Part shown: piece by piece, positions 7,114-28,526 of the stretch
Numbering within the stretch: the stretch's first letter is position 1
Layout: each line of letters starts with the position of its first letter
Assembly: GCA_022560615.1 (NCBI GenBank)
Contig: JADFSR010000039.1
Coordinates: 1 to 34,821 of the forward strand
DNA length: 34,821 bases
Source: Gemmatimonadota bacterium
Lineage (GTDB): Bacteria; Gemmatimonadota; Gemmatimonadetes; Longimicrobiales; Gaopeijiaceae
Direction of reading: 5' to 3'
The notes under the pieces: model-generated
The model's database searches: none
Seen by the model: only the letters and a program-made list of their open reading frames with translations
Told to the model about the DNA's origin: nothing
Position numbers and translations under genes: made by a program

Positions 7114-7126
7114 GCACGGCGGCGGA

Positions 7127-7852: not shown

Positions 7853-8060
7853 TGGGCGCGCTGGCCACGATCGGCCACGCGTCCCTTGGCGTCCCAACAA
7901 GGCATGGTCACGTTCCGGGGCTCACGGTAGCTTCGGGGGTGTTCTTCGCGGACCTCCGTCGAACTGATCAAGCTTGGCCATGACCCTCTGCCGAGATCGC
8001 CGAACTGCGGGACTTCATCTCCGTGGAGGCGCGCGTCGACCACCTGGAGGCTGAGAGGTG
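7853..8060 (+). other. Intergenic region between the GDP-sugar cassette and the toxin-antitoxin island
   Basis: About 208 bases with no convincing gene. TGGCC at 7862-7866 and GGCCA at 7873-7877 could form a short hairpin just after hddC, but no T-run follows, so a terminator is not secure. The last 65 bases contain a short open frame (AEIAELRDFISVEARVDHLE) with no start codon that runs into the mntA start. It could be the remnant of a decayed gene, but it is too short to assign. Confidence 0.4.
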
Positions 8061-9804: not shown

Positions 9805-10583
9805 GCCGCTTGCTCCACAAGCGTGTTCACCACGACACCCCAACCGTGATCATGGCTCCCTCGCCTCTCTCCTGAAGAGACGAGAAGGGTGTGGTCGCCC
9901 GTGTCCGGGGAAGCAAGCTCGCGAAGCCGATCGATCTTGAGGTCCGGATGTGTTCGCGAGAGAAACCAGCCGCATCGGCGAACAGCAGCGCGAGAGCGGA
10001 GTCGCGCGGCTTCCACGAGCTTCTCCACGTCCAGATCCAGCCCCCCGAGGACTTCGAGAATGACATTGATCCCGGCGCCGGCTTCAGGTCGATCCGCGAG
10101 GTCGAGCACGCAGGTCTCCGGAGTCGCCACCGACAAGGACCCGGTGGGGCCGGTAAGGCCCTGGACGGCGCGCGCCGCAATGCCCGAGGCGGTGTAGAAC
10201 CGCAAGCGAATCCCGCCGATATCTCTATCGCCCACCTTGCCATCGCAGACCACTTGGAATAGCTGCGATGCTTGGTGGCTGGCCCCGTGACGAGCAGCAG
10301 CGGTGAGGAAGGCGAGGTAGTAGGCGCGACCAAGGTGGCGCATCATGTCGTCGATGAACCAATCGGCGGGTACGACTCCCCAGGAGCGGTACTCCGGCGG
10401 TACGAGCACGTAGAGCCCCTTCGTCGGGCTGAACAGTTTCTTTCGTGCCTTTGCCTTGTGCACGGCCCAGTAGGTGGTCTTCAAGGTCGCACCAGCACGC
10501 GCGGCTAATTCCGGCGCAGTGATAGTCACTACACCCTCAGATAGAAGCCTATCCCACAGCGGCGCAAATGTAAGTAAAGGCAT
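9801..10583 (-). CDS. abiEi: AbiEi family antitoxin and transcriptional repressor
   Basis: Protein of 260 residues. The N-terminal part (about 15-60) looks like a winged helix-turn-helix: VTITAPELAARAGATLKTTY, then KGLYVLVPPEY. The middle has the AbiEi core WGVVPADWFIDDMMRHLGRAYYLAFLTAAARHGASHQ, given here as its two ends (WGVVPADWFID and AARHGASHQASQ). AbiEi proteins neutralise AbiEii without a stable complex and repress their own promoter by binding inverted repeats upstream. Two perfect inverted repeats are present just upstream of this gene (10617-10669). The stop overlaps abiEii by four bases. The start at 10583 lies at the edge of a markedly AT-rich promoter, unlike the rest of the window, a possible sign of transfer. 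Confidence 0.86.
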   Translation of the reverse strand: MPLLTFAPLWDRLLSEGVVTITAPELAARAGATLKTTYWAVHKAKARKKLFSPTKGLYVLVPPEYRSWGVVPADWFIDDMMRHLGRAYYLAFLTAAARHGASHQASQLFQVVCDGKVGDRDIGGIRLRFYTASGIAARAVQGLTGPTGSLSVATPETCVLDLADRPEAGAGINVILEVLGGLDLDVEKLVEAARLRSRAAVRRCGWFLSRTHPDLKIDRLRELASPDTGDHTLLVSSGERRGSHDHGWGVVVNTLVEQAA

Positions 10584-12857: not shown

Positions 12858-14189
12858 ATGAAGATTGCGGTAGTCGGCTCGGGATACGTTGGCCTCGTCG
12901 CAGGTGCCTGCCTGGCCGAATCCGGCAACGACGTGATCTGTGCCGACATCGATCAGGACAAGATCGACGGTCTCAATCGGGGCGAGATCCCAATCTTCGA
13001 ACCGGGGCTGGAGCCGCTGATCGAGAGCAACCTCGAGGCGGGCCGCTTGAGTTTCACCACGGAGGTGCCTGAGGCGGTGCGCGCCTCCGAGATCGTTTTT
13101 ATCGCCGTGGGCACGCCACCGGACGAGGACGGCTCGGCCGACCTTCAGCACGTCCTGGCCGTAGCTCGCACGATCGGCGAGTCGATGAATGGCGAGAAGA
13201 TCGTGATCACGAAAAGCACCGTGCCGGTCGGCACCGCGAAGCGTGTGAGGGACGAGATCGAGTCGCGGACGAAGCATACGGTCCACGTCTGCTCGAACCC
13301 CGAGTTCCTGAAGGAGGGGGCGGCGATCGAGGATTTCATGAAGCCTGATCGCGTGGTGCTCGGTGTGGACTCGGAGTACGCTGCAGAGGTGCTTCGCGAT
13401 CTGTACGCCCCCTTCGTTCGCACGGGGCGCGAGATCTTGATCATGGACGTTCCTTCTGCCGAGATCACCAAGTACGCGGCCAACTCGATGCTGGCGATGC
13501 GGATCAGCTTCATGAACTCGATTGCGCAGCTGTGCGAGAAGGCCGGAGCCGACGTGAATGCGGTGCGACAGGGGATCGGCTCCGATACGCGCATCGGTTC
13601 GAGCTTCCTCTTCCCAGGGGTTGGATACGGTGGTTCTTGTTTTCCGAAAGATGTGCAAGCGCTCGCACGCACGATGAGCGAGCTCGGTGCCGACCCTTCG
13701 ATTCTGCAGGCGGTCGAGCACGTCAATCAGCGACAGAAGCGCATCTTGCTCGAGCGGCTCGTCGATCGGCTCGGGGAAGACCTCACGGGCCGCACCGTTG
13801 CGGTTTGGGGTCTCGCCTTCAAGCCGAACACCGACGACATGCGGGAAGCGCCGAGCATCGTCACGATCGAGGGGCTGCTCGAACGGGGGGCGCGTGTGGT
13901 CGCTCACGACCCCGTCGCGATGGACGAGGCCCGCCGTCGCTTCGGCGATCGTGTGGAGTTCGCGGACGTCAACTACGACGCCTTGCACGGTGCCGCCGCA
14001 CTCGTAATCCACACCGAGTGGCACCCATACCGGCGTCCGGACTTCGAGCGCATGCTCGATGCGATGGAGCGGCCGCTCGTCTTGGACGGCCGGAATCTCT
14101 ACGACCCGGACCAGATGGCCGAGAGGGGCTTCGAATACGTCTCCATCGGCCGCGCCGGCGTCGCGGTCAGGACGGAGCGCAGCGACTAG
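12858..14189 (+). CDS. ugd: UDP-glucose 6-dehydrogenase
   Basis: Protein of 443 residues. It has [19 protein letters not shown] (NAD-binding) at the N-terminus, [10 protein letters not shown], the UDP-glucose-type signature [20 protein letters not shown], and [16 protein letters not shown] with the catalytic Cys261. It oxidises UDP-glucose twice with NAD to UDP-glucuronate. The KEGxAxxDF pattern is that of UDP-glucose rather than of the WbpA-type UDP-GlcNAc dehydrogenases. It lies three bases upstream of the UDP-glucuronate decarboxylase and near a UDP-glucuronate 4-epimerase, which together use its product. The start is the first ATG after uvrB. Confidence 0.95.
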
Positions 14190-14192
14190 AGC

Positions 14193-16574
14193 ATGCGTGT
14201 ACTCGTCACGGGAGCGGCCGGCTTCCTCGGTTCTCATCTCGCTGAGCGATTTCTCAGAGAGGGTGATGAGGTCGTCGGGCTCGACAACTTCGTGACGGGT
14301 TCGCTCGATAACTCAGCGATTCTGGAAGCGTTCGAAGGATTCAGGCTGATCGAGCATGATATCTCGCAGCCGATCTTCTTCGACGAGGAACTGGATGGGG
14401 TCCTCCACTTCGCCTCTCCCGCGAGCCCCGTCGACTATCTCGAGATCCCGATTCAGACACTGAAGGTGGGTAGCCTCGGCACGCACAACGCACTCGGGAT
14501 CGCATTGGCCAAGGGTGCGCGTTTTCTCCTCGCCTCCACTTCCGAGGTATACGGGGATCCGCTCGTACATCCTCAGCCCGAGACCTACTGGGGCAACGTG
14601 AACCCCATCGGCGTTCGTGGCTGCTATGACGAGGCGAAGCGTTTTGCCGAAGCGATTACCATGGCGTACCACAGACACCATGGGGTCGATACGCGGATCG
14701 TTCGCATTTTCAACAGCATCATGGCGGATGAGACCATCATGCTGTTCAACGATGAGTCGATGCATATCGAGGCGGTCGAGGATTACTTCGACTCCCGCTC
14801 ATCCGATCAATTGATCGTCCGGCGGAAGATGCGCGTGCCCGCCTTCAACCCGGAGACGCTCCGAGTCGAGCTCCGAGAGGCGGACGCCCTCATCAAGTAC
14901 CCCTCGGGGGGCAAGGACTCGTATCGAGTGAGTATGCGGTACGGACGTCGTATCCGCGTGACAGGCGACCACAGTGTCTTCATTAAGGGGCTCGATGGTC
15001 GTCCCCAGGCCGTGCCCGTAAGAGACCTGAAGATCGGCGACTACGTCGGGATTCCCGCCAGGCTCCCAGTTGTCGAGCGCGATCTGCCAGACGTGGACCT
15101 CATGCAGCACTTCGTTGAAGCAGCGGATTCCGAGGAGGATCTGTGGGGGTGGGCCCTCGTCGGTGAAGGAATCACTCCGCTTCTGGACGAATGGCATGAC
15201 GAGATCTTCGAGCAGTTACTCAATAGTTCGCGCTACGATGGAAGCGTCAGGAAAAGGAACACGGTCGGCTGCGTATGGCGCTCGTGGAAGCGACAGAACA
15301 AGGTCCCGTTGTCGGTGGCGGCGAGGCTAGCTCGGCGGCACGGCGTCACCTGGCCGAGATCCGCGCGAATCGAGGCGTTCGGCACAGGCAAGTCGGTGTC
15401 GGTGCCGCGGCAGGTGCTGGTAACTCCGGACCTTCTTTGGCTCCTAGGCCTCTTCATCGCAGAAGGATGTCATGTAGACAGCCGCGGTACCTATCGGCTT
15501 CTTGTCTCGTCCGACGAGGAGTACGTGCTGCGAGCGGCGGAGATCTTTGAATCCACGCTCGGCCTCGTGCCTACGGTGATTCCGCCGCAGGACGGTCGAG
15601 GGCCCTCGCTCCATGTCGACGGCAAGACGCTCCTCGTACTGTTCCGGGACGTCTTCCAGGTCACGGGGTATTCGCGCGACATTCGCTTGCCCCGGTGGGT
15701 CCTCCAGCTTCCGCTCAGCCGCCTGAAGCACTTTCTGGAGGGGTATCGTGAGGGCGACGGCACCCACACCGGATATCCGGAATGTCGGGAGCTGGCCTTC
15801 AACACGGTGAGCGAAGGGCTGGCCACGGACCTCACCTACCTTCTGCTTCGCTTCGGGATCGTGGCGTCGGTGGGGCGGTACACGACGACGTTCAAGCAGC
15901 GCTACGGTGACCGGGAATTCCCCTTTTGGCGGGTGACCGTCTGTGAGCTCTCCGATTTCGATATCCTGACATGGGACGAGGGAGTGGAGCAGACGCTCAA
16001 TGCCACCCGCTCCGGCGACATCGTATGGGCGCGCGTCAACGACATCGAGCCGATCGAGGCATCTGAGTTCGTCTACGACTTCTCGGTCCCCGAGTACGAG
16101 AACTTCGTGGCGGGCAATGGTGTGTTTGCCCACAACACCTACGGACCTCGCATGAGGCCCGGAGACGGACGCGTCGTGTCGAACTTCATCGTGCAAGCGC
16201 TCCGCGGGGATCCGCTGACCCTGTACGGAGACGGTAGCCAGACACGGTCGTTCTGCTACGTGGACGACGAGGTCGACGGGATCTACCGGCTGTTCCACTC
16301 CGACCGCTCGGAACCGACCAACATCGGGAATCCGAACGAGTTCACGATCAAGGAGCTCGCACGAATCGTGTTGGAGGAGACCGGTAGCAAGTCCCCGATC
16401 GAGTCTTTGCCGCTCCCCGAGGATGACCCAAAGGTCCGGCAACCGGACATTTCGGTCGCGCGCGAGGTCCTCGGCTGGGAGCCGAAGGTCGAGATCCGAG
16501 ATGGTATCCGGCGGACGCTGCCGTTCTTCGAGGAGGAGCTGGCGCGTCACGACGCGCGCGCCCGCACGATATGA
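14193..16574 (+). CDS. UDP-glucuronate decarboxylase (UDP-xylose synthase) interrupted by an intein
   Basis: The reading frame is 793 residues, far longer than the usual 310-320. Residues 1-174 and 649-793 join into a 319-residue UDP-xylose synthase. The first part has [32 protein letters not shown] and GCYDEAKR (Tyr145, Lys149). The second has [31 protein letters not shown] and [12 protein letters not shown]. The join restores RIFN-TYGPRM, the conserved family sequence. Residues 175-648 are the intein, described separately. The enzyme decarboxylates UDP-glucuronate to UDP-xylose, using NAD as a bound cofactor. The catalytic Tyr and Lys are on one side of the intein and the sugar-binding loop is on the other, so activity should depend on splicing. 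The stop overlaps the next gene (ATGA). Confidence 0.93.
14715..16136 (+). mobile_element. Intein with LAGLIDADG homing endonuclease, inserted in UDP-xylose synthase
   Basis: A 474-residue in-frame insertion (residues 175-648). It begins with Ser175 ([10 protein letters not shown], block A) and has T-G-D-H at 257-260 (block [10 protein letters not shown]). It ends with the block F pattern [12 protein letters not shown]...GVFAHN, so the last residues are His647-Asn648 and the next residue is Thr649. These are the expected splice residues: Ser1, His-Asn and Thr+1. Two endonuclease motifs are visible, LLGLFIAEG ending near residue 425 and [10 protein letters not shown] at about 514-523, with the acidic residues Glu424 and Asp522 kept. 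It is therefore a full-length intein with a possibly active homing endonuclease, not a mini-intein. Insertion at a highly conserved active-site motif of the host is typical of inteins; a sugar-nucleotide enzyme as host is not. Confidence 0.95.
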
Positions 16575-16945
16575 TCGAGCAACCACGCAGAGTCGAGAAG
16601 CCCTGGGGCTATGAGCTCATCTGGGCCGAGACCGACCAGTACGTCGGCAAGATCCTGCACGTGAACGCGGGTGAGGCGCTCTCGCTGCAATACCACGAGA
16701 GGAAGGACGAGACGATCTACCTGCTGAGCGGCACGATGCTGTTCCAGGCGGGACCGTCAGCCGACGAGCTCGTGGACTACCATATGGAAGCGGGTCAGCG
16801 ATTCCATGTGACGACGGGCACGGTTCACCGCATGGTGGCTGAGACGGACGTGGACATCCTGGAGGCGTCCACTCCGCACTTGGAGGACGTGGTGCGCCTG
16901 GCGGACCGCTACGGGAGAGTCGAGCCAACTCCCGAGGGCTCATGA
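16571..16945 (+). CDS. Cupin, mannose-6-phosphate isomerase-like single domain
   Basis: Protein of 124 residues with a single cupin barrel. The first motif is [18 protein letters not shown] (candidate metal ligands His, Glu), and the second is [18 protein letters not shown]. It begins [13 protein letters not shown], like the start of the cupin half of type II phosphomannose isomerases and of many capsule-locus cupins. Such proteins may be sugar isomerases or epimerases, but stand-alone versions are poorly characterised. It overlaps both neighbours by four bases (ATGA at 16571 and 16942) and so is made with UDP-xylose synthase and UDP-glucuronate 4-epimerase. Its substrate is unknown. Confidence 0.85.
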
Positions 16946-17925
16946 CGCCTCTACCTTCGAACAGTTCGATTCTAGTCACCGGTGCCGCCGGGTTCCTAGG
17001 ATCTCACCTCTCAGAAAGTCTTGTTCATGCGGGGCATCGAGTGGTCGGGCTCGATTCCTTCGATAACTTCTACGACCGGGCCATCAAGGAGCAGAACCTT
17101 TCCCAGCTCCGTGCCGCCTCGACCTTCTCCCTCGTTGAGGGCGACATCCGAGATGGCGCAACGTTGGATAGCCTGCCGTCCGATGTGAGCCTCGTGGTGC
17201 ACCTCGCCGCGAAGGCAGGTGTGCGACCATCGATCGAGGATCCTCAACTGTACTCGAGCGTCAACGTGGATGGGACGTGGCGGCTGCTCGATTGGATGAG
17301 ACAGCGAGGCATTCCACATTTCGTTTTTGCCTCGTCCTCATCGGTGTATGGGAATTGTGACGTCGCGCCGTTTAGGGAGGACTTGGTCGTGGACCGACCG
17401 ATCTCCCCATATGCCGCCACGAAGCTCGCCGGTGAGCTCGCGTGTCATACCTATCATCACCTCCACGATCTGTCGGTGTTGGCCCTCCGTTTTTTCACCA
17501 TCTACGGCCCTCGCCAACGCCCCGATCTCGCCATCCACAAGTTCGCTCGTCTGATGCGCGCAGGGCAGTCGATTCCGATGTTCGGCGATGGTTCCACCGA
17601 ACGCGACTACACGTACATAGACGACATCCTCCAGGGGATTCTCGCGTCCATCGATCTGCTCCGGCGTTCTGAGCCGCTCTTCGAGATCGTCAACCTGGGC
17701 GAAAGCCGGACCGTGTCGCTGCACGAGATGATCCAGGTGCTCGGTGAGGAAATGGGGGTCGAGCCCGCTGTCGATCAGAAGCCGATGCAGCCGGGTGACG
17801 TTGAGCGCACCTACGCGGACGTATCTAAGGCGCGGGCGCTGCTCGCGTATGAGCCCAGCGTGGAGTTTCGGGACGGCGTGCGAATGTTCCTCGAGTGGTT
17901 CGACGACCCCGAGCGCAGCGGTTGA
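16942..17925 (+). CDS. UDP-glucuronate 4-epimerase-like extended SDR
   Basis: Protein of 327 residues. It has [16 protein letters not shown], the segment LDSFDNFYDRAIKEQNL (LDNFNxYYD-like, typical of UDP-glucuronate epimerases), HLAAKAGVRPSIEDP, ASSSSVYGN, SPYAATKLAGE (Tyr, Lys) and LRFFTIYGPRQRPDLAIHKF. Family members interconvert UDP-glucuronate and UDP-galacturonate through a 4-keto intermediate. With Ugd upstream making UDP-glucuronate, the role fits. It overlaps the cupin by four bases. No strong second candidate, though UDP-glucose 4-epimerase-like activity cannot be excluded from sequence alone. Confidence 0.88.
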   Translation: MTPLPSNSSILVTGAAGFLGSHLSESLVHAGHRVVGLDSFDNFYDRAIKEQNLSQLRAASTFSLVEGDIRDGATLDSLPSDVSLVVHLAAKAGVRPSIEDPQLYSSVNVDGTWRLLDWMRQRGIPHFVFASSSSVYGNCDVAPFREDLVVDRPISPYAATKLAGELACHTYHHLHDLSVLALRFFTIYGPRQRPDLAIHKFARLMRAGQSIPMFGDGSTERDYTYIDDILQGILASIDLLRRSEPLFEIVNLGESRTVSLHEMIQVLGEEMGVEPAVDQKPMQPGDVERTYADVSKARALLAYEPSVEFRDGVRMFLEWFDDPERSG

Positions 17926-18100: not shown

Positions 18101-18238
18101 GTGCTGACAAAGGACGTGGAGAGGGTCTGGTCTGTCCTGTGCGATGTGGTCGAGTACTGGGACGGCTTCTTGGTTTCCGGGCGCCTCCCCGTCCTCGCAC
18201 CGGCCCGCGACCGCATCGTGCCCTCGGGTATGCTCTGA
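18101..18238 (+). CDS. Possible 45-residue small protein or leader peptide
   Basis: GTG 18101 has GAGG five bases upstream (18092-18095). The frame runs 45 codons and its TGA overlaps the ATG of the next gene (TGATG at 18236-18240). The product begins MLTKDVERVWSVLCDVVEYW and is not recognised. The coupling is what makes it worth listing. It could equally be a chance frame in GC-rich DNA; no homologue could be checked. Confidence 0.3.
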   Translation: MLTKDVERVWSVLCDVVEYWDGFLVSGRLPVLAPARDRIVPSGML

Positions 18239-19335
18239 TGAGCGACTGGACCGGCCGCAGAGTTCTCGTCACAGGCGTCTGCGGCACCGTAGGTCGCGAG
18301 ATCCTGCGTCAACTCGTTACGGAGGCCCCGACCGAGATCATCGGGATCGACAATAACGAGAGCGAGCTTTTCTTCCTGCAACAGGAGACGAGCGACCTCG
18401 ACACGCTCGTCACGCTCTCGCTCGGCGACGTACGGGACGCCGCCCGGTTGCAACGTGTCATGGAGGGCGTCGATACGGTCCTGCACGCGGCGGCGCTCAA
18501 GCACGTGCATCTGTGCGAGCAATCCCCTCGTGACGCGATTCAGACCAACGTGCTCGGCGCGCAGAACATCGTGGACGCCGCCGAGGCGAACGGCGTCGAG
18601 CGCGTCATTCTGACCTCGTCGGACAAGGCGGTGAACCCGACCTCGGTCATGGGCACTTCGAAGCTGATGGGAGAACGCCTCTTCACCGCGGCCTACCTTC
18701 GGCGGCGCGACCCGCGACCGATCTTCGCTTCGACGCGCTTCGGCAACGTTCTCGGGTCCCGGGGCTCGGTGATTCCGCTCTTCCACCGCCAGGTACATGA
18801 CGGAGGGCCGGTCACGATCACCGACCTCGATATGACGCGTTTCATCATGACGCTGCGCGAAGCCGTGAAGCTGACGATGGACTCGGTCTTTCTGGCGCAG
18901 GGCGGTGAGGTCTTCGTGACCAAGATGCAGGTCCTCCGGATCGAGGACCTCGCGCACGTGATGATCGAGGAGCTGGCGCCCGTGTACGGGCACGATCCGG
19001 ACGAGATCCGCATCGAGATCATCGGCGCGAAGATGGGCGAGAAGCTCTGGGAAGAGCTGCTCAACGAAGAGGAGGTCCGGCGCGCGGAGGAGCTGCCGAA
19101 CCACTTCGTCATCCATCCGGTGGTGCCGACGACGCTGGGAGGCAAGCTCGAGTACATCCACCCCAAAGCGCTCGGCACCGTCGAAGAGGCCTACAACTCG
19201 GCGCGCGAGAGGCCGATGACGCGCGAAGAGCTCCGCACGTACCTCAGGGAGCACGAGCTGCTCGAGGTCGACGGCGACGGGGGTGCAAGCAGCGAGGCGG
19301 GGCGGACCCGAGTCTGGGAGATGGCGGAACGATGA
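18238..19335 (+). CDS. CapD/PglF-like sugar-nucleotide 4,6-dehydratase (soluble, no membrane domain)
   Basis: Protein of 365 residues with VLVTGVCGTVGREILRQL at the N-terminus, LHAAALKHVHLCEQSP, the active-site set SSDKAVNPTSVMGTSK (Asp129, Lys130, and Met in place of the usual Tyr with Lys142), STRFGNVLGSRGSVIPLF and GAKMGEKLWEELL. This is the inverting or retaining UDP-GlcNAc 4,6-dehydratase branch (FlaA1, PseB, PglF). There is no N-terminal transmembrane region. The product would be a UDP-4-keto-6-deoxy-N-acetyl hexosamine. The start at ATG 18238 begins directly before the conserved core. Downstream aminotransferase and PglC-like transferase suggest a PglF-like role. It overlaps sqdB by four bases. 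Confidence 0.86.
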   Translation: MSDWTGRRVLVTGVCGTVGREILRQLVTEAPTEIIGIDNNESELFFLQQETSDLDTLVTLSLGDVRDAARLQRVMEGVDTVLHAAALKHVHLCEQSPRDAIQTNVLGAQNIVDAAEANGVERVILTSSDKAVNPTSVMGTSKLMGERLFTAAYLRRRDPRPIFASTRFGNVLGSRGSVIPLFHRQVHDGGPVTITDLDMTRFIMTLREAVKLTMDSVFLAQGGEVFVTKMQVLRIEDLAHVMIEELAPVYGHDPDEIRIEIIGAKMGEKLWEELLNEEEVRRAEELPNHFVIHPVVPTTLGGKLEYIHPKALGTVEEAYNSARERPMTREELRTYLREHELLEVDGDGGASSEAGRTRVWEMAER

Positions 19336-20486
19336 GGGTGCTCATCCTGGGCGGCGACGGCTACCTGGGTTGGCCCACCTCCATGTCACTCGCTGCCCGC
19401 GGCGACGAAGTCATGGCGGTGGACAACTACCTGCGCCGCACCATCGCACGGCAGACCTCGTCCGAAGCGCTGATGCCCAACCCGAATCTGGAGGAACGTG
19501 CTCGACTCTTCGAGCAGTTGACGGGGAAGAGCATCGAGGTCCGTATCGGAGACGTCACCGACTACCGAGTCCTCGAGAGCGTGGTTCGGGAATTCAAGCC
19601 TGAGGCGATCGTTCACTATGCGGAGCAGCCGTCGGGGCCGTACTCCATGCGGGGCTTCGACGAGGCGCGCTTGACACTCCAGAACAACTTGAACGCGACG
19701 TTCAACGTCATCTGGGCGGTCATGCAGCACGCACCTGACTGCCACATCGTGAAGCTCGGCACGATGGGGGAGTACGGGACGCCCGACATCGATATCGAGG
19801 AAGGATGGATCGAGATAGAGCACAAGGGGCGCAAGGACACGTTCCTGTATCCCCGTCAGGCGGGCAGCCTCTACCACACCACCAAAGTGCTCGATACCGA
19901 TCTGCTTTGGTTCTACGTGCGCACTTTCGGACTGCGCGTGACGGACCTCATGCAGGGACCTGTCTACGGCCTCTCGACCGATGAGTCGAATCTCGACGAG
20001 CGTCTGCTTCCCAACTTCCACTACGACGACATTTTCGGCACGGTGGTCAACCGCTTCCTCGTGCAGGCGGTGGCGGGAGTCCCGCTCACGGTGTACGGGA
20101 CCGGTGGACAGGTTCGTGGTTACTTGAACCTGCGTGATACGATGCAGTGCATTCAGTTGGCGCTGCGTTCGAGGGCGGATTCCGGCGAGTTGCGTGTCAT
20201 GAACCAGTTCACCGAGACGTTCTCGGTGAACGATCTTGCGGATCGCGTGCAGCGTGTCGGGAGCGAGCTTGGGCTCGCCGTCGAGGTACAGAACGTGCCG
20301 AACCCACGGAAGGAGGCGGAGGATCACTACTACAACCCCGCGCATTCCGCGCTGCTGGACCTCGGCCTCGAGCCGACCTACATGACCGATGAAGTGCTAG
20401 CTGCGATGATGCGTCAGGTGATCGCGTACGAGGATCAGATCGCCAGGGACCGGATTCCTCCGCGCGTGCGTTGGTCGACGGAATGA
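19332..20486 (+). CDS. sqdB: UDP-sulfoquinovose synthase (SqdB/SQD1/Agl3 family)
   Basis: Protein of 384 residues. It begins MRVLILGGDGYLGWPT, the family's GGDGYxGW form of the NAD motif. It continues with HYAEQPSGPYSM, VKLGTMGEYGTPDIDIEEGW (Thr144, Met145), PRQAGSLYHTTKV (Tyr181, Lys185), FGTVVNRFLVQ, LTVYGTGGQVRGYLNLRDT and NPRKEAEDHYYNPAH. The catalytic Thr/Tyr/Lys lie at almost the same positions as in plant SQD1. The enzyme adds sulfite to UDP-glucose to make UDP-sulfoquinovose, the donor for sulfolipid or, with Agl3 in Sulfolobus, for a surface N-glycan. No sulfolipid synthase gene (SqdX/SQD2) is recognised nearby, while glycan genes surround it. It overlaps both neighbours by four bases. 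Confidence 0.92.
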   Translation: MRVLILGGDGYLGWPTSMSLAARGDEVMAVDNYLRRTIARQTSSEALMPNPNLEERARLFEQLTGKSIEVRIGDVTDYRVLESVVREFKPEAIVHYAEQPSGPYSMRGFDEARLTLQNNLNATFNVIWAVMQHAPDCHIVKLGTMGEYGTPDIDIEEGWIEIEHKGRKDTFLYPRQAGSLYHTTKVLDTDLLWFYVRTFGLRVTDLMQGPVYGLSTDESNLDERLLPNFHYDDIFGTVVNRFLVQAVAGVPLTVYGTGGQVRGYLNLRDTMQCIQLALRSRADSGELRVMNQFTETFSVNDLADRVQRVGSELGLAVEVQNVPNPRKEAEDHYYNPAHSALLDLGLEPTYMTDEVLAAMMRQVIAYEDQIARDRIPPRVRWSTE

Positions 20487-21646
20487 CGGATGATAGCCGC
20501 ACACGTCTGGAGTTCTCGCCGCCGTTCCTTGGGGAGGAGGAGATCGCCGAGGTCGCCGAGGCCCTGCGCTCCGGCTGGATCTCTCGTGGACCGCGCACCC
20601 GCCAGTTCGAGGCAGCGTTCGCCGAGTACCTGGGGGCGCCGTCGGCCCTCGGCCTGAGCTCGTGCACAGCGGGACTCCACCTCGCTCTCATCGTCCTCGA
20701 GATCGGGCCGGGTGACGAAGTCATCGTGCCGACCATGACGTTCTGCGCGACCGCGAACGCGGTCGAGCACGTCGGCGCGAAGCCGGTGCTAGTGGACGTG
20801 GAGGCGGACACGCTCAACATCGACCCGAAGGCGGTCGAGAACGCGATCACGGAGCGCACGAAGGCGATCATGGTCGTGCACTACGGTGGCCATCCGGCTG
20901 ACTTGAACGCGCTGCAAGCCATTGCGGATCACCACGGGCTCGCGGTCGTGGAGGACGCCGCCCACTCGTTGCCGGCTCGGTACGAGGGTCGGACGGTTGG
21001 TGCCACGCCCAACCTCACGTCCTTCAGTTTTTACGCGACGAAGAACCTGACGACAGGAGAGGGTGGAATGCTCACGGGTGATCCCGCGCTCGTCGATCGA
21101 GCTCGAGTACTGAGCTTGCACGGCATCCAGACAGGGGCGTGGGATCGTCACTCGGAGGGCGGGACCTGGTACTACGAGGTCGTCGCGCCCGGCTACAAGT
21201 ACAATATGACGGACTTGGAGGCGGCGCTGGGCATGTGTCAATTGAAGAAGTTGGACAGCATGCAGGCGCGCCGGAGAGAGATCGTAGACCTTTATCAAGA
21301 GGCGTTCGCCGACATCGAGGGGTTGGAGTTGCCCTCCACGAGGCATGGCGTCGATCCTGCCTGGCACTTGTTCCCCATACGGGTGCGACCCGATGTTCTC
21401 GGCATAGACCGTGACCAGCTCGTTCACGGTCTGACCGAGCAGGGCATCGGCACTTCGGTTCACTTCATTCCACTACACGTGCAACCGTACTACCGAGAAA
21501 AGTACGGACTGACGACGGAGGATTTTCCAGTGGCGCATGACGCCTTCGAGCGCCTGGTGACCATTCCCTTGCATCCGGGGCTGAGCGACGAGGACGGAGA
21601 ACGAATCGTGGACGCGATCCGCGGCACAATATGCCAAAGGAAGTGA
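20483..21646 (+). CDS. DegT/DnrJ/EryC1 sugar aminotransferase, PglE-like
   Basis: Protein of 387 residues, PLP fold type I. It has the sequence FLGEEEIAEVAEALRSGWIS, the substrate/PLP region LSSCTAGLHLAL, VPTMTFCATANAV, VEDAAHSLPA and SFYATKNLTTGEGGML with Lys187 as the PLP-binding lysine. Family members transaminate a keto group on a nucleotide sugar with glutamate. Following a 4,6-dehydratase and preceding a PglC-like transferase, the expected product is a UDP-4-amino-4,6-dideoxy sugar, as in bacillosamine synthesis. ATG 20483 overlaps the sqdB stop (ATGA), which decides against the TTG a few codons upstream. Confidence 0.87.
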   Translation: MTDDSRTRLEFSPPFLGEEEIAEVAEALRSGWISRGPRTRQFEAAFAEYLGAPSALGLSSCTAGLHLALIVLEIGPGDEVIVPTMTFCATANAVEHVGAKPVLVDVEADTLNIDPKAVENAITERTKAIMVVHYGGHPADLNALQAIADHHGLAVVEDAAHSLPARYEGRTVGATPNLTSFSFYATKNLTTGEGGMLTGDPALVDRARVLSLHGIQTGAWDRHSEGGTWYYEVVAPGYKYNMTDLEAALGMCQLKKLDSMQARRREIVDLYQEAFADIEGLELPSTRHGVDPAWHLFPIRVRPDVLGIDRDQLVHGLTEQGIGTSVHFIPLHVQPYYREKYGLTTEDFPVAHDAFERLVTIPLHPGLSDEDGERIVDAIRGTICQRK

Positions 21647-21647
21647 C

Positions 21648-22334
21648 GTGATAGGTGTGACGACTCCGCTCGGCCGTGCCGTGAAGCGCGCTCTGGACAT
21701 GGCGTTGTCGCTCGCAGGGCTCGTCGTGCTTCTGCCGGTAACGCTGCTCGTGGCGGTCGCGGTGAAGCTGGACGGGCCCGGTCCGGTCTTCTTTCGGCAG
21801 GAGCGCGTCGGGCGGGGTGGGGAGATTTTCCGGATCTGGAAGTTCCGCACGATGGAGCTCGCTGTCGAATGCGAAGGTCCCTCGATCACGGTGGCGGGCG
21901 ATAAGCGCGTAACACGCGTTGGCCGGTGGCTGCGCAAGTGGAAGCTCGACGAGCTACCCCAGCTCATGAACGTGTTCGCGGGCAGTATGAGCTTGGTTGG
22001 GCCGAGACCGGAAGTCCCACGATTCGTAGCGTTGTATGACGAGGATCAGCGTGCCGTCCTGGCCTTTCGGCCGGGCATCACGGATCCGGCAACACTGGCC
22101 TACCTTGACGAGGAGGACATTTTGGACGGTGTGGCCGACTGGGAGTCGTACTACGAATCCACCGTGATACCGGACAAGATCGCCGCGAATCTGCAGTACA
22201 TGTCGAGGGCAACGATAACGTCGGACCTGGCCATCCTCGTGCGCACAGTGCTGAGGATACTGCATTCACCCGAGGGGGAGGATGACTGGCTTCCCTCCAG
22301 CCAGGTCCAGCTTCAGGAAGAGTCTCGCCGCTAG
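21648..22334 (+). CDS. Monotopic phosphoglycosyl transferase (bacterial sugar transferase, PglC-like)
   Basis: Protein of 228 residues. It has a single N-terminal hydrophobic re-entrant segment (about 15-37), GPVFFRQERVGRGGEIFRIWKFRTM split as FFRQERVGRGG and IWKFRTM, KWKLDELPQLMNVFAGSMS with the catalytic Asp101-Glu102 pair, and LVGPRPEVPRF. It transfers a phospho-sugar from a UDP-sugar to undecaprenyl phosphate at the inner membrane, the first step of lipid-linked oligosaccharide synthesis. It lacks the large N-terminal membrane domain of WcaJ/WbaP, so it is the small PglC-like type. GTG 21648 follows the previous stop by one base with AGGAAG upstream. With the dehydratase and aminotransferase just before, a UDP-amino-sugar substrate is likely. 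Confidence 0.9.
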   Translation: MIGVTTPLGRAVKRALDMALSLAGLVVLLPVTLLVAVAVKLDGPGPVFFRQERVGRGGEIFRIWKFRTMELAVECEGPSITVAGDKRVTRVGRWLRKWKLDELPQLMNVFAGSMSLVGPRPEVPRFVALYDEDQRAVLAFRPGITDPATLAYLDEEDILDGVADWESYYESTVIPDKIAANLQYMSRATITSDLAILVRTVLRILHSPEGEDDWLPSSQVQLQEESRR

Positions 22335-22340
22335 GAGCCC

Positions 22341-23591
22341 ATGAGATCCCTCTTCGCCCTCCTGCTGGCCACACTCTTCGTGGTCGGAGGGCTCGTGCGC
22401 AGTCAGACGACCGTCATGGAGGTGTACCTGCAGGCGTTCGTGGTTGCGACGCTGGTTCTGTTCGCGCTCTACATCGGCTTGGTGAGCGGGTCTCACGTGC
22501 GCTCTGCGACGCAGACGATGCCACGCATCGTAAAGTTCACAGGGATCGTGTGGGCAGTCACGGCAGGGGTCGTCGCTTACGGCATGCTGTTGTCCGTGGA
22601 AGGTGGTTGGGACAACCGCACGGCCATCGCGCTCGCGTCTCGCAACACGCCCCTTGCGCTGCTGCCGGTCTTTGCGTTCACGCTGCGGCGCGAGCGTGAG
22701 TGGCGCGTGGCGATGTGGTTCTTCGTGGGCATCGGCGTGGTATCGGCGCTCGTGGACTTGTCGTCCGTCGACGCGTTCGATACTCGGCTCACACGCTTGG
22801 TATCGGGGGAGTTCCACAACGTATACCACCACTACGCGCTCATCGTGGCGGTATTGGCGGTGCTCTTGCTGCCGGGCAGCGGGACCGTGCGGACGGGACT
22901 GTTGCTCGTACTTCCTTTTCTGCTATGGCGCACTATGCTCTCCCTCAGCCGCGGCCCGGTGGTGATCGCGGCACTCGCGTTCCTGTATGCGGTGGTCTTC
23001 TCCACGCCGCCGCGGGCGGGTCCGCTCTTGAAGCGTGGCTTCATAGCTGTCGCCCTAATCCTGCTCGCTTGGACGCCGCTGCAGTCGCTGACCCAGACTC
23101 GCTTGGCGGATGCGTACGAGGTCGCTTTCCTGAATCGAGCCAGCTACGCGGAGTGGGCTGTGAGCTACCGCTTGGCGGAGCTTCGGTCGGCTCTGGCGTA
23201 CGGCGGGGTGATGGGCGAGGGGTGGGGCGCGTCCGGCGACTTCTCTGCGGCCCTCAACTACACGAATTCTGCCCAGGCGGTCACGACCAAGTCGTACGTG
23301 CACAACCTGTTCGGCTTCGCGTGGTGGAAACTCGGGGTCATCGGGGGCGCGCTGGTGATCAGCTTGGTCGTATACACCGTGCGCAACATCAAGCTGTCGG
23401 TCGACCTGGGCGACCGAACCGGGGTGATCGTCGGCGGCATTCTCTTGATGTGGCTGCTGCACGGCATGTTCAACATGGACTTCGCTCGCACCGAGGTGAA
23501 TCTGCTCGTGGCTGCGACGATCAGCTACTTCGTCTCCAGGTCGTTCTGGGGTGAAGCGTTCTTCGAGCGGGAGCCCGTTGGCCCCCGCTGA
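22341..23591 (+). CDS. O-antigen ligase/polymerase-like integral membrane protein (Wzy/WaaL family)
   Basis: Protein of 416 residues with roughly ten to twelve hydrophobic segments across its length. A long loop holds Arg-rich stretches (about 250-300), followed by KSYVHNLFGFAWWKLGVIGG, which resembles the conserved HN...GxxG region of the Wzy_C/O-antigen ligase family. These proteins polymerise repeat units or ligate the finished glycan in the periplasm. Which of the two this is cannot be told from sequence. It sits between the initiating transferase and a Wzx-like flippase, whose start overlaps its last 41 bases. The position favours Wzy-like polymerisation. Confidence 0.78.
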   Translation: MRSLFALLLATLFVVGGLVRSQTTVMEVYLQAFVVATLVLFALYIGLVSGSHVRSATQTMPRIVKFTGIVWAVTAGVVAYGMLLSVEGGWDNRTAIALASRNTPLALLPVFAFTLRREREWRVAMWFFVGIGVVSALVDLSSVDAFDTRLTRLVSGEFHNVYHHYALIVAVLAVLLLPGSGTVRTGLLLVLPFLLWRTMLSLSRGPVVIAALAFLYAVVFSTPPRAGPLLKRGFIAVALILLAWTPLQSLTQTRLADAYEVAFLNRASYAEWAVSYRLAELRSALAYGGVMGEGWGASGDFSAALNYTNSAQAVTTKSYVHNLFGFAWWKLGVIGGALVISLVVYTVRNIKLSVDLGDRTGVIVGGILLMWLLHGMFNMDFARTEVNLLVAATISYFVSRSFWGEAFFEREPVGPR

Positions 23592-24990
23592 GGCGGAGAG
23601 CGTTCACCGGCTTTCGGTGAGCCGCCTGCTGAGCGGAAGTGTCTGGGCCTTTGGCGGCCGCGGTCTCGGAACCGTGCTCGCGTTGCTCATCAATGCCTTC
23701 CTTGCCCGACTCCTCACCCCCGATCAGCTCGGGGCCTATTTTCTGGCGTTCAGCGTAATGACCGTATTGGTGCTCGTGGCTCAGCTCGGGGGCAAGCCGA
23801 CGATGGTCCGGTTGGTCGCCGCGAGCCGCGCGACTGACCGCGACGGACGGGCCCGAGCCGCGGCCGGACGGGTCGTCCTGCTCGGACTCCTGGGTAGCGT
23901 CACGGTAGGCTCGGCCTGGTGGCTTCTGGGGGGCGAGTTGGCCGGCCGGCTCTTCGAGTCCGAGGACATCGGGCGGGTTTCTGGATTGATCGCGATCTGG
24001 GTCGGAGTGCTCGCGCTCGCCGAGCTGCACACCGAGGGGCATCGGGCGCTGGGAGATATCCGCGCGGCCGTGCTTCTCGGCTGGGTCGCGAACAACGTGG
24101 TGCTCGTCCTCGTCTTGGCGGTTGTGCTCGTCTCTGGGGTGAGCTTCGGTTTCCGGGCGGCGCTGGTAGTCTCGATCGTCGGAGCCGCGGTGACGCTGCT
24201 GATCGGCGCGGGGACACTGTGGAGGCGCCTATGGGCGCTGCCGCGAGGCCAGATCGCGCTACGGGAGGTCCTGACGGTATCGATGCCGCTTCTTGGCACG
24301 CACTTGCTTCTCTTCGTGGTCGGCCAGAGTGGTCTGTGGATCCTCGGCGCACTACGCCCGGAGGCGGAAGTCGCCCTATACGGCGCGGCATTCCGTCTGG
24401 TGACCGTCGTGAAGATGCCGCTCCTGATCGCGAACGCGGTCGTACCGCCCTTCATCAGCGACTACCATGCTCGAGGAGAGATCGAGGCTCTCGAGACGAC
24501 GCTGAGAGGCACCGCGACCGTCGCGGCGCTGCCCGCGCTGGTGGTGCTGGCCGCGTTCGCGATCGCTGGCGGACCCATTCTGGGTGTCGTCTTTGGCGAT
24601 CCGTACCGCGACGCGGCACTGCTGCTGGCCGTTCTGAGCCTCGGGCAGGCGGTCAACGTTTGGGCCGGATCGGCTGATATCACGCTGATGCTCACCGGCC
24701 ACCAAATCCCAATGCTGAGGGTGACTGCGATCAGCGGTGGCGCGGGGATCGTCGGTGCTATTTGGGCGGGCTCGCAGTACGGCGCTGCCGGGGTCGCCTG
24801 GGCGGCGGCCGCAACCTGGCTGCTCCAGGCGATCCTGATGCTATCGCTTGCCCGCAGGCTCGTGGGTGTGCGCCCTGGCGCGTCGTTTGCGCCCGCGTCG
24901 TTGAAAGCGGCGTACCAGCTGGTCATGCAGGGGCTCCGGGGCGGGGCCCAGGGGCAGGGGCAGGGGAAGGGGAAGCGGAAGCGCCGGTAG
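23551..24990 (+). CDS. Wzx-like oligosaccharide flippase (MOP superfamily)
   Basis: Protein of 479 residues with about twelve to fourteen transmembrane segments. The first part, LLSGSVWAFGGRGLGTVLAL then LINAFLARLLTPDQLGAYFL, is typical of polysaccharide flippases. It would move undecaprenyl-linked repeat units across the inner membrane. The frame starts inside the previous gene. GTG 23551 is used here, but TTG 23578 has GGGAG four bases upstream and may be the true start, giving a shorter cytoplasmic N-terminus. The C-terminus is unusual: it ends in a Gly/Gln/Lys/Arg-rich tail (GGAQGQGQGKGKRKRR) encoded by a short hexamer repeat. Confidence 0.85.
   Translation: MKRSSSGSPLAPAEAESVHRLSVSRLLSGSVWAFGGRGLGTVLALLINAFLARLLTPDQLGAYFLAFSVMTVLVLVAQLGGKPTMVRLVAASRATDRDGRARAAAGRVVLLGLLGSVTVGSAWWLLGGELAGRLFESEDIGRVSGLIAIWVGVLALAELHTEGHRALGDIRAAVLLGWVANNVVLVLVLAVVLVSGVSFGFRAALVVSIVGAAVTLLIGAGTLWRRLWALPRGQIALREVLTVSMPLLGTHLLLFVVGQSGLWILGALRPEAEVALYGAAFRLVTVVKMPLLIANAVVPPFISDYHARGEIEALETTLRGTATVAALPALVVLAAFAIAGGPILGVVFGDPYRDAALLLAVLSLGQAVNVWAGSADITLMLTGHQIPMLRVTAISGGAGIVGAIWAGSQYGAAGVAWAAAATWLLQAILMLSLARRLVGVRPGASFAPASLKAAYQLVMQGLRGGAQGQGQGKGKRKRR
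24940..24990 (+). repeat. G-rich hexamer repeat encoding the basic tail of the flippase
   Basis: Repeated GGGGCA then GGGGAA units end the flippase gene and encode alternating Gly-Gln then Gly-Lys, followed by Lys-Arg residues. G-runs on one strand could slip during replication or form a G-quadruplex. The tail is probably cytoplasmic. Confidence 0.55.
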
Positions 24991-25000
24991 GGAAGTCCGA

Positions 25001-25023
25001 GGAACCGCACCATGGGTGGTTCC
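25001..25023 (+). promoter_or_regulatory. Imperfect palindrome between the flippase and dehydrogenase genes
   Basis: GGAACC (25001-25006) and GGTTCC (25018-25023) are exact inverted copies, with partial pairing inside (GC.C with GG.GT). It lies in the 91-base gap and could be a hairpin that dampens read-through or an operator. No T-run follows. Confidence 0.35.
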
Positions 25024-25081
25024 GTGGGCATGCTTCGATAGATTCTCCGCGGACCTACACACCTTCCAAGACCGAGTTCCT

Positions 25082-26095
25082 ATGCCGGACATGGTCAGCC
25101 TCGTGCTCGACGGACCGCGCTCCATCGATATGCGACGCCAGGCGATGCCTGTGCTACCGGACGATTCCGTCCGAGCTGAGGCGATCGTCACGGGGGTGAG
25201 CGCAGGCACGGAACGCATGTGGTACGACGGCACGAACCCCGCTATCAAGAGCGGGCGTCGCGGATATCCGTACCACCCGGGTTACGAGTTCGTGGGTCGG
25301 GTCGTCGAAATGGGCCCGGAGGTGGTGGACATCGAGGCCGGCGAGCTCGTTATCGCGATGAAGCCTCACGGAAGCCATGCGATTCTGGGTCCTGCGGATT
25401 ACTGGGCGGTGCTCCCGGACGACATCTCCCCCGACGATGCGGTTGCGACCGCCTTGACCGCCACCAACCTGCACGCGCTTCATCGTGCGGGCCCGTTCGC
25501 AGGCGACGCGGTTGCCGTGATCGGGATGGGTACTCTCGGGCTCCTTTGCTGCCAGGTGCTGCGCGCCACCGGAGCGGGAGAGGTGATCGCGATCAGTCGC
25601 TCCGCGCGGAAGCGCGAGCTCGCCATCGAGTTGGGTGCGAGCCTGGCGCTCGACCCCGCCGACCCGGAGCTGACGGAACAGGTGCTCGACCGTACCGGCG
25701 ATCGGGGCGTCGACGTCGCAATCGAGTGGGCAGGGGTCGACTCGGCGGTCCACACGGCGATGCGGGTCGTGCGAAATCAGGGGCGGGTCGTGGTGGGGGG
25801 CTTCCACATCGAGCACTTCTCGGTCTCGGGTGAGATCTTCTTCTCGAAGGAGATCACCGTGCACAGCGTGCGCGGCTCCGGAAGCACCGCGACGACAAGC
25901 GAGTTCAACCGCTGGAGCCGCCGTGAGAACTTCGCCGCCGCCGCGAGCCTCGTGGCGTCCGGACTCGTGGTGGGGAAGCCGCTCGTCACGCATAGGGTTG
26001 TGGCCCCCGACCTCGCGGCGGCATACGACATCGTTTCCTCGCACGACCAAGAATTCATCCAGGTCGTGCTCGACTGGACTGACTCCGTGTCGTGA
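25082..26095 (+). CDS. Zinc-less MDR dehydrogenase, BchC-like
   Basis: Protein of 337 residues of the medium-chain dehydrogenase superfamily. It has VSAGTERMWYDGTNP, GYPYHPGYEFVGRVVEMGPEV, and the nucleotide-binding segment AVIGMGTLGLLCCQVLRATGAG, followed by GVDVAIEWAGVDSAV. The pattern SAGTER...PGYEFVG recalls BchC-type members. The catalytic zinc ligands are absent: GHE is GYE and the usual Cys in the GxC position is Ser. The only cysteines are the CC in the Rossmann fold, so the structural zinc site is missing too. It probably oxidises or reduces a sugar hydroxyl or keto group with NAD(P). ATG 25082 was chosen because similarity starts there; frame extends upstream without support. GTGA overlap with the next gene. 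Confidence 0.8.
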   Translation: MPDMVSLVLDGPRSIDMRRQAMPVLPDDSVRAEAIVTGVSAGTERMWYDGTNPAIKSGRRGYPYHPGYEFVGRVVEMGPEVVDIEAGELVIAMKPHGSHAILGPADYWAVLPDDISPDDAVATALTATNLHALHRAGPFAGDAVAVIGMGTLGLLCCQVLRATGAGEVIAISRSARKRELAIELGASLALDPADPELTEQVLDRTGDRGVDVAIEWAGVDSAVHTAMRVVRNQGRVVVGGFHIEHFSVSGEIFFSKEITVHSVRGSGSTATTSEFNRWSRRENFAAAASLVASGLVVGKPLVTHRVVAPDLAAAYDIVSSHDQEFIQVVLDWTDSVS

Positions 26096-27285
26096 CGATG
26101 GCGTTCTCTTTTTTCGCCTGGACCACCATCGCGTTGGTCGTCCTCACGTGGGTGGGATACCCACTCCTCCTGCACGTGCTCGTTGCAGTCTGGGGCCGCC
26201 GAGGGACGGACATGGGGACAGACGTAGCGGACGGAAGGCCTCCGTCCCTCACCCTGCTCATTGCCGCGCACAACGAGGCGGCTGTGCTCGAGCAGAAGCT
26301 CGAGAACTCGCTGGCTCTGGATTATCCTGCGGATCGCTTGGAGATCCTCGTCGCCTCCGACGGGTCTTCCGATCGAACCGTGGAGATCGCACGATTGTTC
26401 GCCTCCAGGGACGCACGCGTGCGCGTATACGATGGTGCTGGGGCGGGCAAGACCGCGACTCAAAACGCTGCGGTGGCACTCGCGACGGGAGACATCGTCG
26501 TCTTCACGAACGCTGACACGATGCTGCAGCCGGACGCTCTCGCCTTCATGACCAGCCACTTCGCCGACGAGGCTGTCGGCTGTGTGGGTGCCCGCATGCT
26601 GTGGAAGGACCCCACGCGGAGTCAGACCGGTGCCGGTACGAGTTTCTATTGGTCGTTCGAGCAGATGCTCTGGTCTTTGGAGAGTGCCCTCGGCGTGCTC
26701 GCTTGGGCTCCCGGAGCGTGTATGGCGGTGCGCCGTTCGCTATTCGAGCCGATGAACCCTGACTTCGGTGAGGACGTCGTTCTCCCGATACAGCTCGCCG
26801 GCCGCGGAGCGCGCGTGGTGTACGAACCGCGCGCGGTAGCGATCGAACAGGCCCATCGAGAAGCTGGAGCAGAGTTTCGGGTTCGCACGCGCATGGTGCT
26901 GCGCAGCTTTTCGGGCACCATGGCGGGGCTGCGCGAGCTGCCCTGGCGATCGGCTTGGACCGTGGGACTCGTCGTGCTCGTTCACAAGGTGTTTCGCTGG
27001 CTCACGCCGTACTTCCTCGGGCTGGGGCTCGTGGCGAGTCTCGGGCTCGCGATCGTGGCGGGTGACCTACTGTCCCTGAGCTTGCTGGGCGCGCAGCTAG
27101 CGATCTACGCGATGGCGACGGCCGGCTGGCTGATGGACCGCGTGGGCCTTCCGGCGGTTCCGCCCTTGACCTGGGTCTACTACTTCATGCTGTCCGTGCT
27201 CGCATCGGGGCTCGGGGTCGCGCGGGCGGTCCGCGGCGAGCGCATGGGCCGATTCGGCCCTGAGATCGGGGAGGGTCTAGGATGA
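26092..27285 (+). CDS. Membrane-anchored family 2 glycosyltransferase
   Basis: Protein of 397 residues. An N-terminal transmembrane helix (about 5-33) is followed by a GT-A domain: LTLLIAAHNEAAVLEQKLEN, EILVASDGSSDRTVEIARLF, VFTNADTM as the DxD-like metal site, GACMAVRRSLF, and FGEDVVLPIQLA (ED motif). Three or four C-terminal hydrophobic helices follow (about 290-385). Processive or single-addition transferases of this type add a sugar on the cytoplasmic face. GTG 26092 overlaps the previous stop; ATG 26098, two codons later, is an alternative. The acceptor and donor are unknown. Confidence 0.87.
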   Translation: MTMAFSFFAWTTIALVVLTWVGYPLLLHVLVAVWGRRGTDMGTDVADGRPPSLTLLIAAHNEAAVLEQKLENSLALDYPADRLEILVASDGSSDRTVEIARLFASRDARVRVYDGAGAGKTATQNAAVALATGDIVVFTNADTMLQPDALAFMTSHFADEAVGCVGARMLWKDPTRSQTGAGTSFYWSFEQMLWSLESALGVLAWAPGACMAVRRSLFEPMNPDFGEDVVLPIQLAGRGARVVYEPRAVAIEQAHREAGAEFRVRTRMVLRSFSGTMAGLRELPWRSAWTVGLVVLVHKVFRWLTPYFLGLGLVASLGLAIVAGDLLSLSLLGAQLAIYAMATAGWLMDRVGLPAVPPLTWVYYFMLSVLASGLGVARAVRGERMGRFGPEIGEGLG

Positions 27286-28526
27286 TCCGAGCGGCGGAGC
27301 CGACCCGGCACGCAGTCATCGTCGCCTTCTGGGCGGTGCTCACCCCCCGACAGATCCTTTTTCTGCAGACGCTCAAAGAAGAGGGATGGCGGATCACGGT
27401 GTTGGCGTGGGATCGCGAGGGCAGCGGGAAGGGGCCGGTTCTGCCCGAAGGGTTGGTCGACGAGGTTCGGCTGATATCGTTGCCCGCGCCTGCGTGGAGC
27501 TTGCGTCTGCTTGCCAGGCTGCCGCGCTATTATGCCAGGCTGTTGCGTGAGGTCGAGCGGATCCCAGGCCGGCCGATGTGGATTCTGACCCACTTCCTGC
27601 ATCTCCCCATCGCCCGCTTCCTTCGCGGGCGCGTGCTCTACGACGCCGCAGAGATGTACGCAGTCGATATGGGTTTTTACGCGGGCCCGTTGAGGCGGGT
27701 GGCTACCTCCATGCTCGATCGTATCGAATTGCTGTTGGTACGGGGCGTGGACGGCATCACGACGGTCGACTCTCTGAACGGTTGGCTGGAGACGCGGTAC
27801 CGGGGCATCGGGAAGCCCGTGCAAGTCCTGTGGAACCTGCCCGCACGAAGTGATGACGTGGTTCCGGGGCGCAACAGGACGCTCGATTTGACGGGCTCGT
27901 CGGGCGCCTCCGCTGGTTCCGGGGCGCAGGAGAGCCGGAAGCTGGTCGCCTATGCCGGGGGGCTCATGAAGGAGAAGGGCTTCCGTGTCATCCTGGAGGC
28001 GGCGGCTCGTGTGCTCGAGGTGTGCCCCGATACGCAGTTCGTCTTCTATGGTCGCCTGAAGGACGATGAAGCGGCCGTGAGTCGCCTGCTCGACCAGCTG
28101 GGACTCGGAGAGGCGGTTCGCTTCTTCTCCCACGTGCCGTATCCGGAGCTGTTGGTGGAGCTCCAGAAGTGCAGCGTGGGATTGGCGCCGTACCAGCCTG
28201 TCTATCACTACCCGTTGGTCTCCTCGGGGAACGCCCGCAAGATCTTTTCGTACATGCAGGCCGGCATCCCTGTGGTCGCCCCCGACTTCGGCGAGATCGG
28301 GAACGTCGTGCGTGAAGTGGAGTGCGGTCACTTGGTCGACACCGAAGATCCAGAGGCGCTTGCCGATGCGGTGATCGACCTGTTGGTGCACGCCGAGCAG
28401 GCTCATGCGATGGGCGAGAGGGGCCGCCGCGCGTTCGAGACCCGGTTCAGCTGGGAAGAGGAGCGCAGCAAGCTCATGGGACTCGTCGACTCGCTTGCGA
28501 AAAACGGGAAAGCTGCGGGCGAATGA
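27282..28526 (+). CDS. Family 4-like (group 1) glycosyltransferase
   Basis: Protein of 414 residues, GT-B fold. The C-terminal half has KLVAYAGGLMKEKGFRVILE, FVFYGRLKDDE, VGLAPYQPVYHYPLVSSGNA and KIFSYMQAGIPVVAPDFGEI, the nucleotide-sugar site of GT4-like enzymes. The first Glu of the usual E-x7-E is not obvious; the segment reads KIFSYMQAG. It probably acts in the cytoplasm and adds one sugar to the lipid-linked glycan. It overlaps both neighbours by ATGA, in a run with the preceding family 2 transferase. A Gly/Ser-rich linker (about 200-210) separates the two domains. Confidence 0.86.
   Translation: MIRAAEPTRHAVIVAFWAVLTPRQILFLQTLKEEGWRITVLAWDREGSGKGPVLPEGLVDEVRLISLPAPAWSLRLLARLPRYYARLLREVERIPGRPMWILTHFLHLPIARFLRGRVLYDAAEMYAVDMGFYAGPLRRVATSMLDRIELLLVRGVDGITTVDSLNGWLETRYRGIGKPVQVLWNLPARSDDVVPGRNRTLDLTGSSGASAGSGAQESRKLVAYAGGLMKEKGFRVILEAAARVLEVCPDTQFVFYGRLKDDEAAVSRLLDQLGLGEAVRFFSHVPYPELLVELQKCSVGLAPYQPVYHYPLVSSGNARKIFSYMQAGIPVVAPDFGEIGNVVREVECGHLVDTEDPEALADAVIDLLVHAEQAHAMGERGRRAFETRFSWEEERSKLMGLVDSLAKNGKAAGE

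Follow-up and report, generated by a model that had tools for sequence, protein, structure and literature searches.

A SqdB-like sister clade paired with a Pen-like dehydratase: a candidate two-enzyme route to sulfonated sugars for bacterial surface glycans

Sulfoquinovose (SQ) has been described as a head group of phototroph lipids and as a building block in certain N-glycans of archaea (PMC12890257), and a further sulfonated hexose, 6-C-sulfofucose, is present in an N-glycan of Thermoplasma acidophilum, with a biosynthetic route described as unknown (PMC12421959). Agl3 of Sulfolobus acidocaldarius first forms UDP-Glc-5,6-ene from UDP-Glc and then adds sulfite to give UDP-SQ; because the reaction runs in two stages, it can be split. 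Pen/Pal of Bacillus thuringiensis consists of a UDP-GlcNAc 5,6-dehydratase and a follow-on short-chain dehydrogenase/reductase (SDR). Within the collection covered by our literature search, there was no report of sulfoquinovosamine.

The locus analysed here, a SqdB-like gene and its surroundings, lies in a stretch of 34,821 nucleotides (the window), a contig of a 4.50 Mb, 99% complete genome of a Gemmatimonadota bacterium. The genes of the cluster are as follows.

12858-14189, plus strand: UDP-glucose/GDP-mannose dehydrogenase (uronic acid supply)
14193-16574, plus strand: UDP-glucuronate decarboxylase-like SDR, interrupted by an intein
16942-17925, plus strand: SDR epimerase/dehydratase, outside the conserved third-SDR cluster of the relatives
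18238-19335, plus strand: CapD-family SDR, soluble, Pen-like (relative of the UDP-GlcNAc 5,6-dehydratase), with motif TSSDKAVNPTSVMGTSKLMGERL; ATGA overlap with the gene starting at 19332
19332-20486, plus strand: SqdB-like SDR of 384 aa, from the P101/N229/H231 sister clade of UDP-sulfoquinovose synthases
20483-21646, plus strand: DegT aminotransferase, ArnB/PseC-like; ATGA overlap with the SqdB-like gene
21648-22334, plus strand: phosphoglycosyl transferase (PGT), predicted to initiate the glycan on a lipid carrier
22341-23591, plus strand: putative Wzy polymerase
23551-24990, plus strand: Wzx flippase
25016-26095, plus strand: zinc-type alcohol dehydrogenase, possibly sugar-nucleotide related
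26092-27285, plus strand: GT2 glycosyltransferase
27282-28526, plus strand: GT4 glycosyltransferase
28822-31283, plus strand: GFO/IDH/MocA oxidoreductase and second DegT aminotransferase (amino-sugar pair)

The SqdB-like gene is joined by four-base ATGA overlaps to the upstream SDR gene (19332-19335) and to the downstream DegT gene (20483-20486), as the preliminary description had stated; the upstream SDR most likely starts at 18238, not at 18139. That description had also placed an initiating PGT, a polymerase and a flippase downstream, and here PGT and flippase stand (Bac_transf and Polysacc_synt matches), with the polymerase assignment weak (Wzy_C 22.0 bits, below the gathering score of 31.7). 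A cupin gene is also present among the upstream sugar genes. The intein at 14193-16574 carries a LAGLIDADG domain and is inserted in the RIFN/TYGPRM motif of its SDR host. Farther upstream, at 8058-8959 (plus strand) and 8830-10583 (minus strand), lie adjoining toxin-antitoxin-like pairs, Polbeta/HepT-like and AbiEi/AbiEii.

The product of 19332-20486 is a full-length SqdB homologue, matching the NCBIfam model UDPsulfquin_syn with 454 bits (E 2.9e-136) over residues 1-381 of 384 and, in a PDB search, SQD1 of Arabidopsis (1qrr) with 428 bits and 49% identity over the whole length, an identity that makes the fold plain. It has the NAD-binding Rossmann motif GGDGYxGW and retains Thr145-Met-Gly-Glu-Tyr and Tyr182-x3-Lys186 (SQD1 numbering). 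Its 454 bits do not reach the curated cut-off of 575 bits for NCBIfam NF041015; the control, the genome of S. acidocaldarius, home of the proven Agl3, likewise falls below that cut-off, and we dropped the low score as proof of another function. Where SQD1 and Agl3 have EQR, the window protein and its relatives have HYAEQP or a close variant, such that Arg101 becomes Pro, and the RxDYD motif of canonical enzymes (R229, D231) reads NFHYD. In Agl3, the R101A mutant is inactive (PMC4388408). Because Arg101, RxDYD and a score at the NF041015 cut-off are all lacking, we hold back the label UDP-sulfoquinovose synthase, which the preliminary description had applied: judged by its residues at positions 101, 229 and 231, and by its tie to a CapD-family dehydratase nearest a UDP-GlcNAc 5,6-dehydratase, that activity is not established.

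The substitutions are those of a clade. A scan of species genomes, with patterns that leave out the site of residue 101, returned 80 relatives from at least 10 phyla with 63-81% identity to the window protein, which together with that protein form a clade set of 81 sequences; the comparison set comprised 35 canonical sequences, among them Sinorhizobium meliloti sqdB and SQD1. Residue 101 is Pro in 81/81 clade members vs. Arg in 35/35 canonical sequences, and residues 229 and 231 are Asn (Ser in two) and His in the clade vs. Arg and Asp in all 35 canonical sequences. The clade is most cleanly marked by R101P, R229N and D231H, together with D40A (SQD1 numbering anchored on R101). In trees, the clade is monophyletic (support 100/100) on a long stem, and the canonical sequences form a single group (support 87/87) with one intermediate, of PSH type at the three positions (locus L143), at its base. 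A third SqdB-like group (L084 and L123-L125) has P101 but retains the RxD motif (PRD type), so that R101 may equally have been gained in canonical enzymes or lost in the clade. In L084, the gene after the PRD-type one encodes an iron-containing alcohol dehydrogenase.

Phyla are intermixed within the clade tree, which suggests horizontal transfer of the clade genes. Methylomonas sp. SURF-2, Salinivenus iranica and Rubrobacter marinus are among the cultured bacteria that have a clade member. The SqdB-like gene is absent from a genome of the same genus (G001), and among 298 Gemmatimonadota genomes the SqdB-like and partner proteins occur at 60% identity or above only in G000 and G038. An IMG/VR scan aimed at cyanobacterial sqdB-sqdX pairs yielded instead about 99 viral contigs (L153-L232) that encode SqdB relatives, of types RRD, PSH, PMY and PRD, possibly phage-borne sulfosugar genes. 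In some relatives (L028, L035 and L056), a gene for a NeuB-type nonulosonic acid synthase lies near the SqdB-like gene.

To define the conserved unit, we compared the neighbourhoods of 78 clade loci by all-against-all BLAST. A CapD-family SDR lies no more than 6 genes from the SqdB-like gene in 65/78 loci and directly adjoins it in 62/78, with an ATGA overlap in 14 of these 62. Nearly all these partners have the motif TSSDKAVNPT(N/S)VMGTSKLMGERL, which sets them apart from the long WbpM proteins, FnlA/CapE and PseB of the same loci. Against PDB, the best match of the partner is 6BWC (270 bits), followed by FlaA1 and CapE (about 180 bits) and chains of WlaL (PglF; about 165 bits). 6BWC is Pen, a UDP-GlcNAc 5,6-dehydratase (PMC8987622). 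In the tree, the partners form a group of their own that is not sister to Pen. At the position of the Pen Tyr, the partner shares Met with PglF and CapE, which makes a 4,6-dehydratase equally possible. The PglF identity given earlier to the upstream gene is rejected, since PglF and the long WbpM-type proteins are more distant: the gene encodes a soluble CapD-family SDR that is nearest Pen among solved structures. Distance matrices for the partner and the SqdB-like protein are correlated (Mantel r 0.65; permutation maximum 0.285), as is expected of a co-inherited pair; by itself, the correlation is no demonstration of interaction. About 33 loci (about 40%) also contain a third SDR of a single cluster, a relative of C4 epimerases such as WbpP and WbgU, in most cases directly beside the pair. 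The stress that had been laid on the PglE-like aminotransferase and the initiating transferase finds no counterpart in the relatives, where DegT is nearby in 12/78 loci and a PGT in 5/78, and the aminotransferase was accordingly rejected as part of the conserved unit.

PAPS reductase makes sulfite, and the clade neighbourhoods contain genes of this family (PF01507, 1.6e-44; NCBIfam phosphoadenylyl-sulfate reductase above cut-off). They occur in 18/81 loci from at least 4 phyla, in every case read in the same direction as the SqdB-like gene and in 15 within 3.1 kb of it, usually in the order PAPS reductase, SDR, CapD-like gene, SqdB-like gene; the flanking DNA examined at the other 63 of the 81 loci has none. 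With about one or two PAPS reductases expected per genome, and hence fewer than one in the approximately 1.2 Mb of flanking DNA examined, this DNA contains 18, in loci that are not all independent. CysD, CysN and CysC are found in some clade loci, and the canonical SqdB of Pelagovum also has a PAPS reductase gene next downstream. The linkage supports a C6-sulfonated nucleotide sugar as the predicted product of the clade. Searches of the host genome found neither a PF01507 protein (the family covering PAPS reductase and CysD; 14/14 controls positive) nor a sulfite reductase. It does encode a Sat-CysC fusion (ATP sulfurylase plus APS kinase) at 5725-7548 of locus L248, on contig C48. With only this fusion, and neither a PF01507 protein nor a sulfite reductase, no sulfite source was identified in the host.

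The results are best accounted for by synthesis of a sulfosugar by two enzymes, the SqdB-like enzyme and its Pen-like partner, for a Wzx/Wzy-type surface glycan and not for sulfolipid, a reading deduced from sequence to which we give a probability of roughly 0.45. According to this hypothesis, the partner would turn a UDP-hexose, most likely UDP-GlcNAc, into a 5,6-ene or a 4-keto/5,6-ene, and the SqdB-like enzyme, with bound NAD+, would oxidise C4, add sulfite to C6 of the enone and re-reduce C4, yielding a UDP-6-deoxy-6-sulfo-hexose or -hexosamine, such as UDP-N-acetyl-sulfoquinovosamine. Should the partner, like Pen, form a 5,6-ene from UDP-GlcNAc, only the second half of the Agl3 reaction would be left to the SqdB-like enzyme, and a role confined to that half would explain both the constant pairing and the altered pocket. 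In the approximately 40% of loci that have it, the conserved C4-epimerase-related SDR may set the configuration at C4. The sugar would then enter a lipid-linked repeat through PGT, glycosyltransferases, Wzx and Wzy; alternatively, a 4-keto intermediate may be captured by the DegT enzyme of the window. The parts of the hypothesis differ in strength. A sulfosugar is probably the product of the SqdB-like enzyme, and it may be an N-acetylated or otherwise differing one. A split two-enzyme route from UDP-GlcNAc, drawn by analogy, is put forward tentatively, with UDP-GlcNAc and, in this host, sulfite as the substrates that we infer. Somewhat more doubtful is the full proposal, in which joint action of the Pen-like dehydratase and an SqdB-like enzyme that adds sulfite gives UDP-N-acetyl-sulfoquinovosamine (or the C4 epimer), the donor with which at least 10 bacterial phyla would build sulfonated surface glycans.

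Two alternatives concern the reaction. The SqdB-like enzyme could be an ordinary UDP-sulfoquinovose synthase that acts alone on UDP-glucose and sulfite, like Agl3, with SQ entering the glycan and the dehydratase making a separate sugar of the repeat (QuiNAc, bacillosamine or similar), aminated by DegT. SqdB by itself does the whole reaction in other organisms, and whole-length 49% identity to SQD1, retention of TMGEY and YxxxK, sulfite-supply genes near relatives, and the DegT gene directly downstream in the window all fit this account. However, it leaves aside the three substitutions at positions invariant in canonical enzymes, one of them essential in Agl3, the co-divergence of the SqdB-like protein with its partner, and a dehydratase linkage far tighter than that of any downstream aminotransferase or reductase; we consider it unlikely. 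Alternatively, the enzyme might not make a sulfosugar at all and carry out only oxidation, dehydration or epimerisation, for example acting with the Pen-like partner to form a 5,6-ene or to re-oxidise one, with the PAPS reductases incidental. Agl3 without sulfite is a 5,6-dehydratase, Pen/Pal provides a precedent, R101, R229 and D231 are all changed, and the host has neither PAPS reductase nor sulfite reductase. Against this, the 18 same-strand PAPS reductases in the flanking DNA, most of them less than 3 kb away, are far in excess of the rate expected from one or two per genome, which makes the account improbable.

A further alternative concerns the destination of the sugar: SQ could be made for sulfolipid through an unrecognised glycosyltransferase, given that relatives in the family serve sulfolipid and that GT2 and GT4 genes lie downstream. 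An SqdX query in a neighbourhood BLAST returned nothing; a later motif scan returned SqdX-like GT4s adjoining four canonical SqdB genes, which we take to be SqdX from their position and recognised sequence type. With an SqdX-like query of this kind, the best match in the host genome is a generic GT4 (77 bits, 30% identity), vs. 420 bits in G144 and 284 bits in G061, with G077 positive as well; with this query, the preliminary description's observation that no SqdX-like transferase is nearby extends to the whole genome. The S. meliloti SqdD query, which had no positive control, had no match in the 99%-complete host genome. The best SqdX-profile score in clade loci is 117 bits vs. at least 625 bits for neighbours of canonical SqdB. 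Some canonical SqdB genes adjoin SqdX-like or SqdD genes, whereas clade members elsewhere, like that of the window with its PGT, Wzx and Wzy-like genes, lie within polysaccharide clusters. Rubrobacter marinus (G061) has both types, a canonical gene beside an SqdX-like GT4 and a clade member with a CapD-like partner, the clearest sign that the two types probably do different jobs. The sulfolipid reading, which we regard as highly improbable, is rejected, and the earlier proposal of a glycan destination is well supported: the SqdB-like enzyme very probably serves a surface glycan.

The clade and its dehydratase pairing suggest a little-known way in which bacteria may build sulfonated sugars into surface glycans. 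If the clade makes a sulfonated sugar for this purpose, organosulfonate production by non-phototrophic bacteria in many phyla has gone unrecognised, with relevance to the sulfur cycle and to annotation: clade genes are easily read as sqdB and hence mistaken for a sulfolipid marker. The two-gene unit is small and predicted to be soluble, and the biochemistry of Agl3 predicts the intermediate.

Compared with known systems, the locus combines features of several. With SQD1/SqdB (EC 3.13.1.1; Arabidopsis 1QRR, S. meliloti sqdB), it shares full-length homology and the GGDGYxGW, TMGEY and YxxxK motifs, but it differs in P101, N229 and H231, in belonging to a separate clade, in having a CapD-family partner and in lacking SqdX or SqdD. 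With the T. acidophilum 6-C-sulfofucose system, which is archaeal, the likeness would be a C6-sulfonated hexose in a surface glycan. With Pen/Pal, the likeness is the proposed scheme of two SDRs acting sequentially on an exo-glycal, the partner being nearest Pen among solved structures; the second enzyme here is SqdB-like, not Pal-like, and in the partner Met replaces the Tyr of Pen. With Agl3, which puts SQ into an N-glycan, it shares a branch of the enzyme superfamily and a glycan rather than a lipid context; Agl3 has Arg101, acts alone on UDP-Glc and serves N-glycosylation, whereas the SqdB-like enzyme has Pro101, an obligate-looking partner and a Wzx/Wzy-type cluster.
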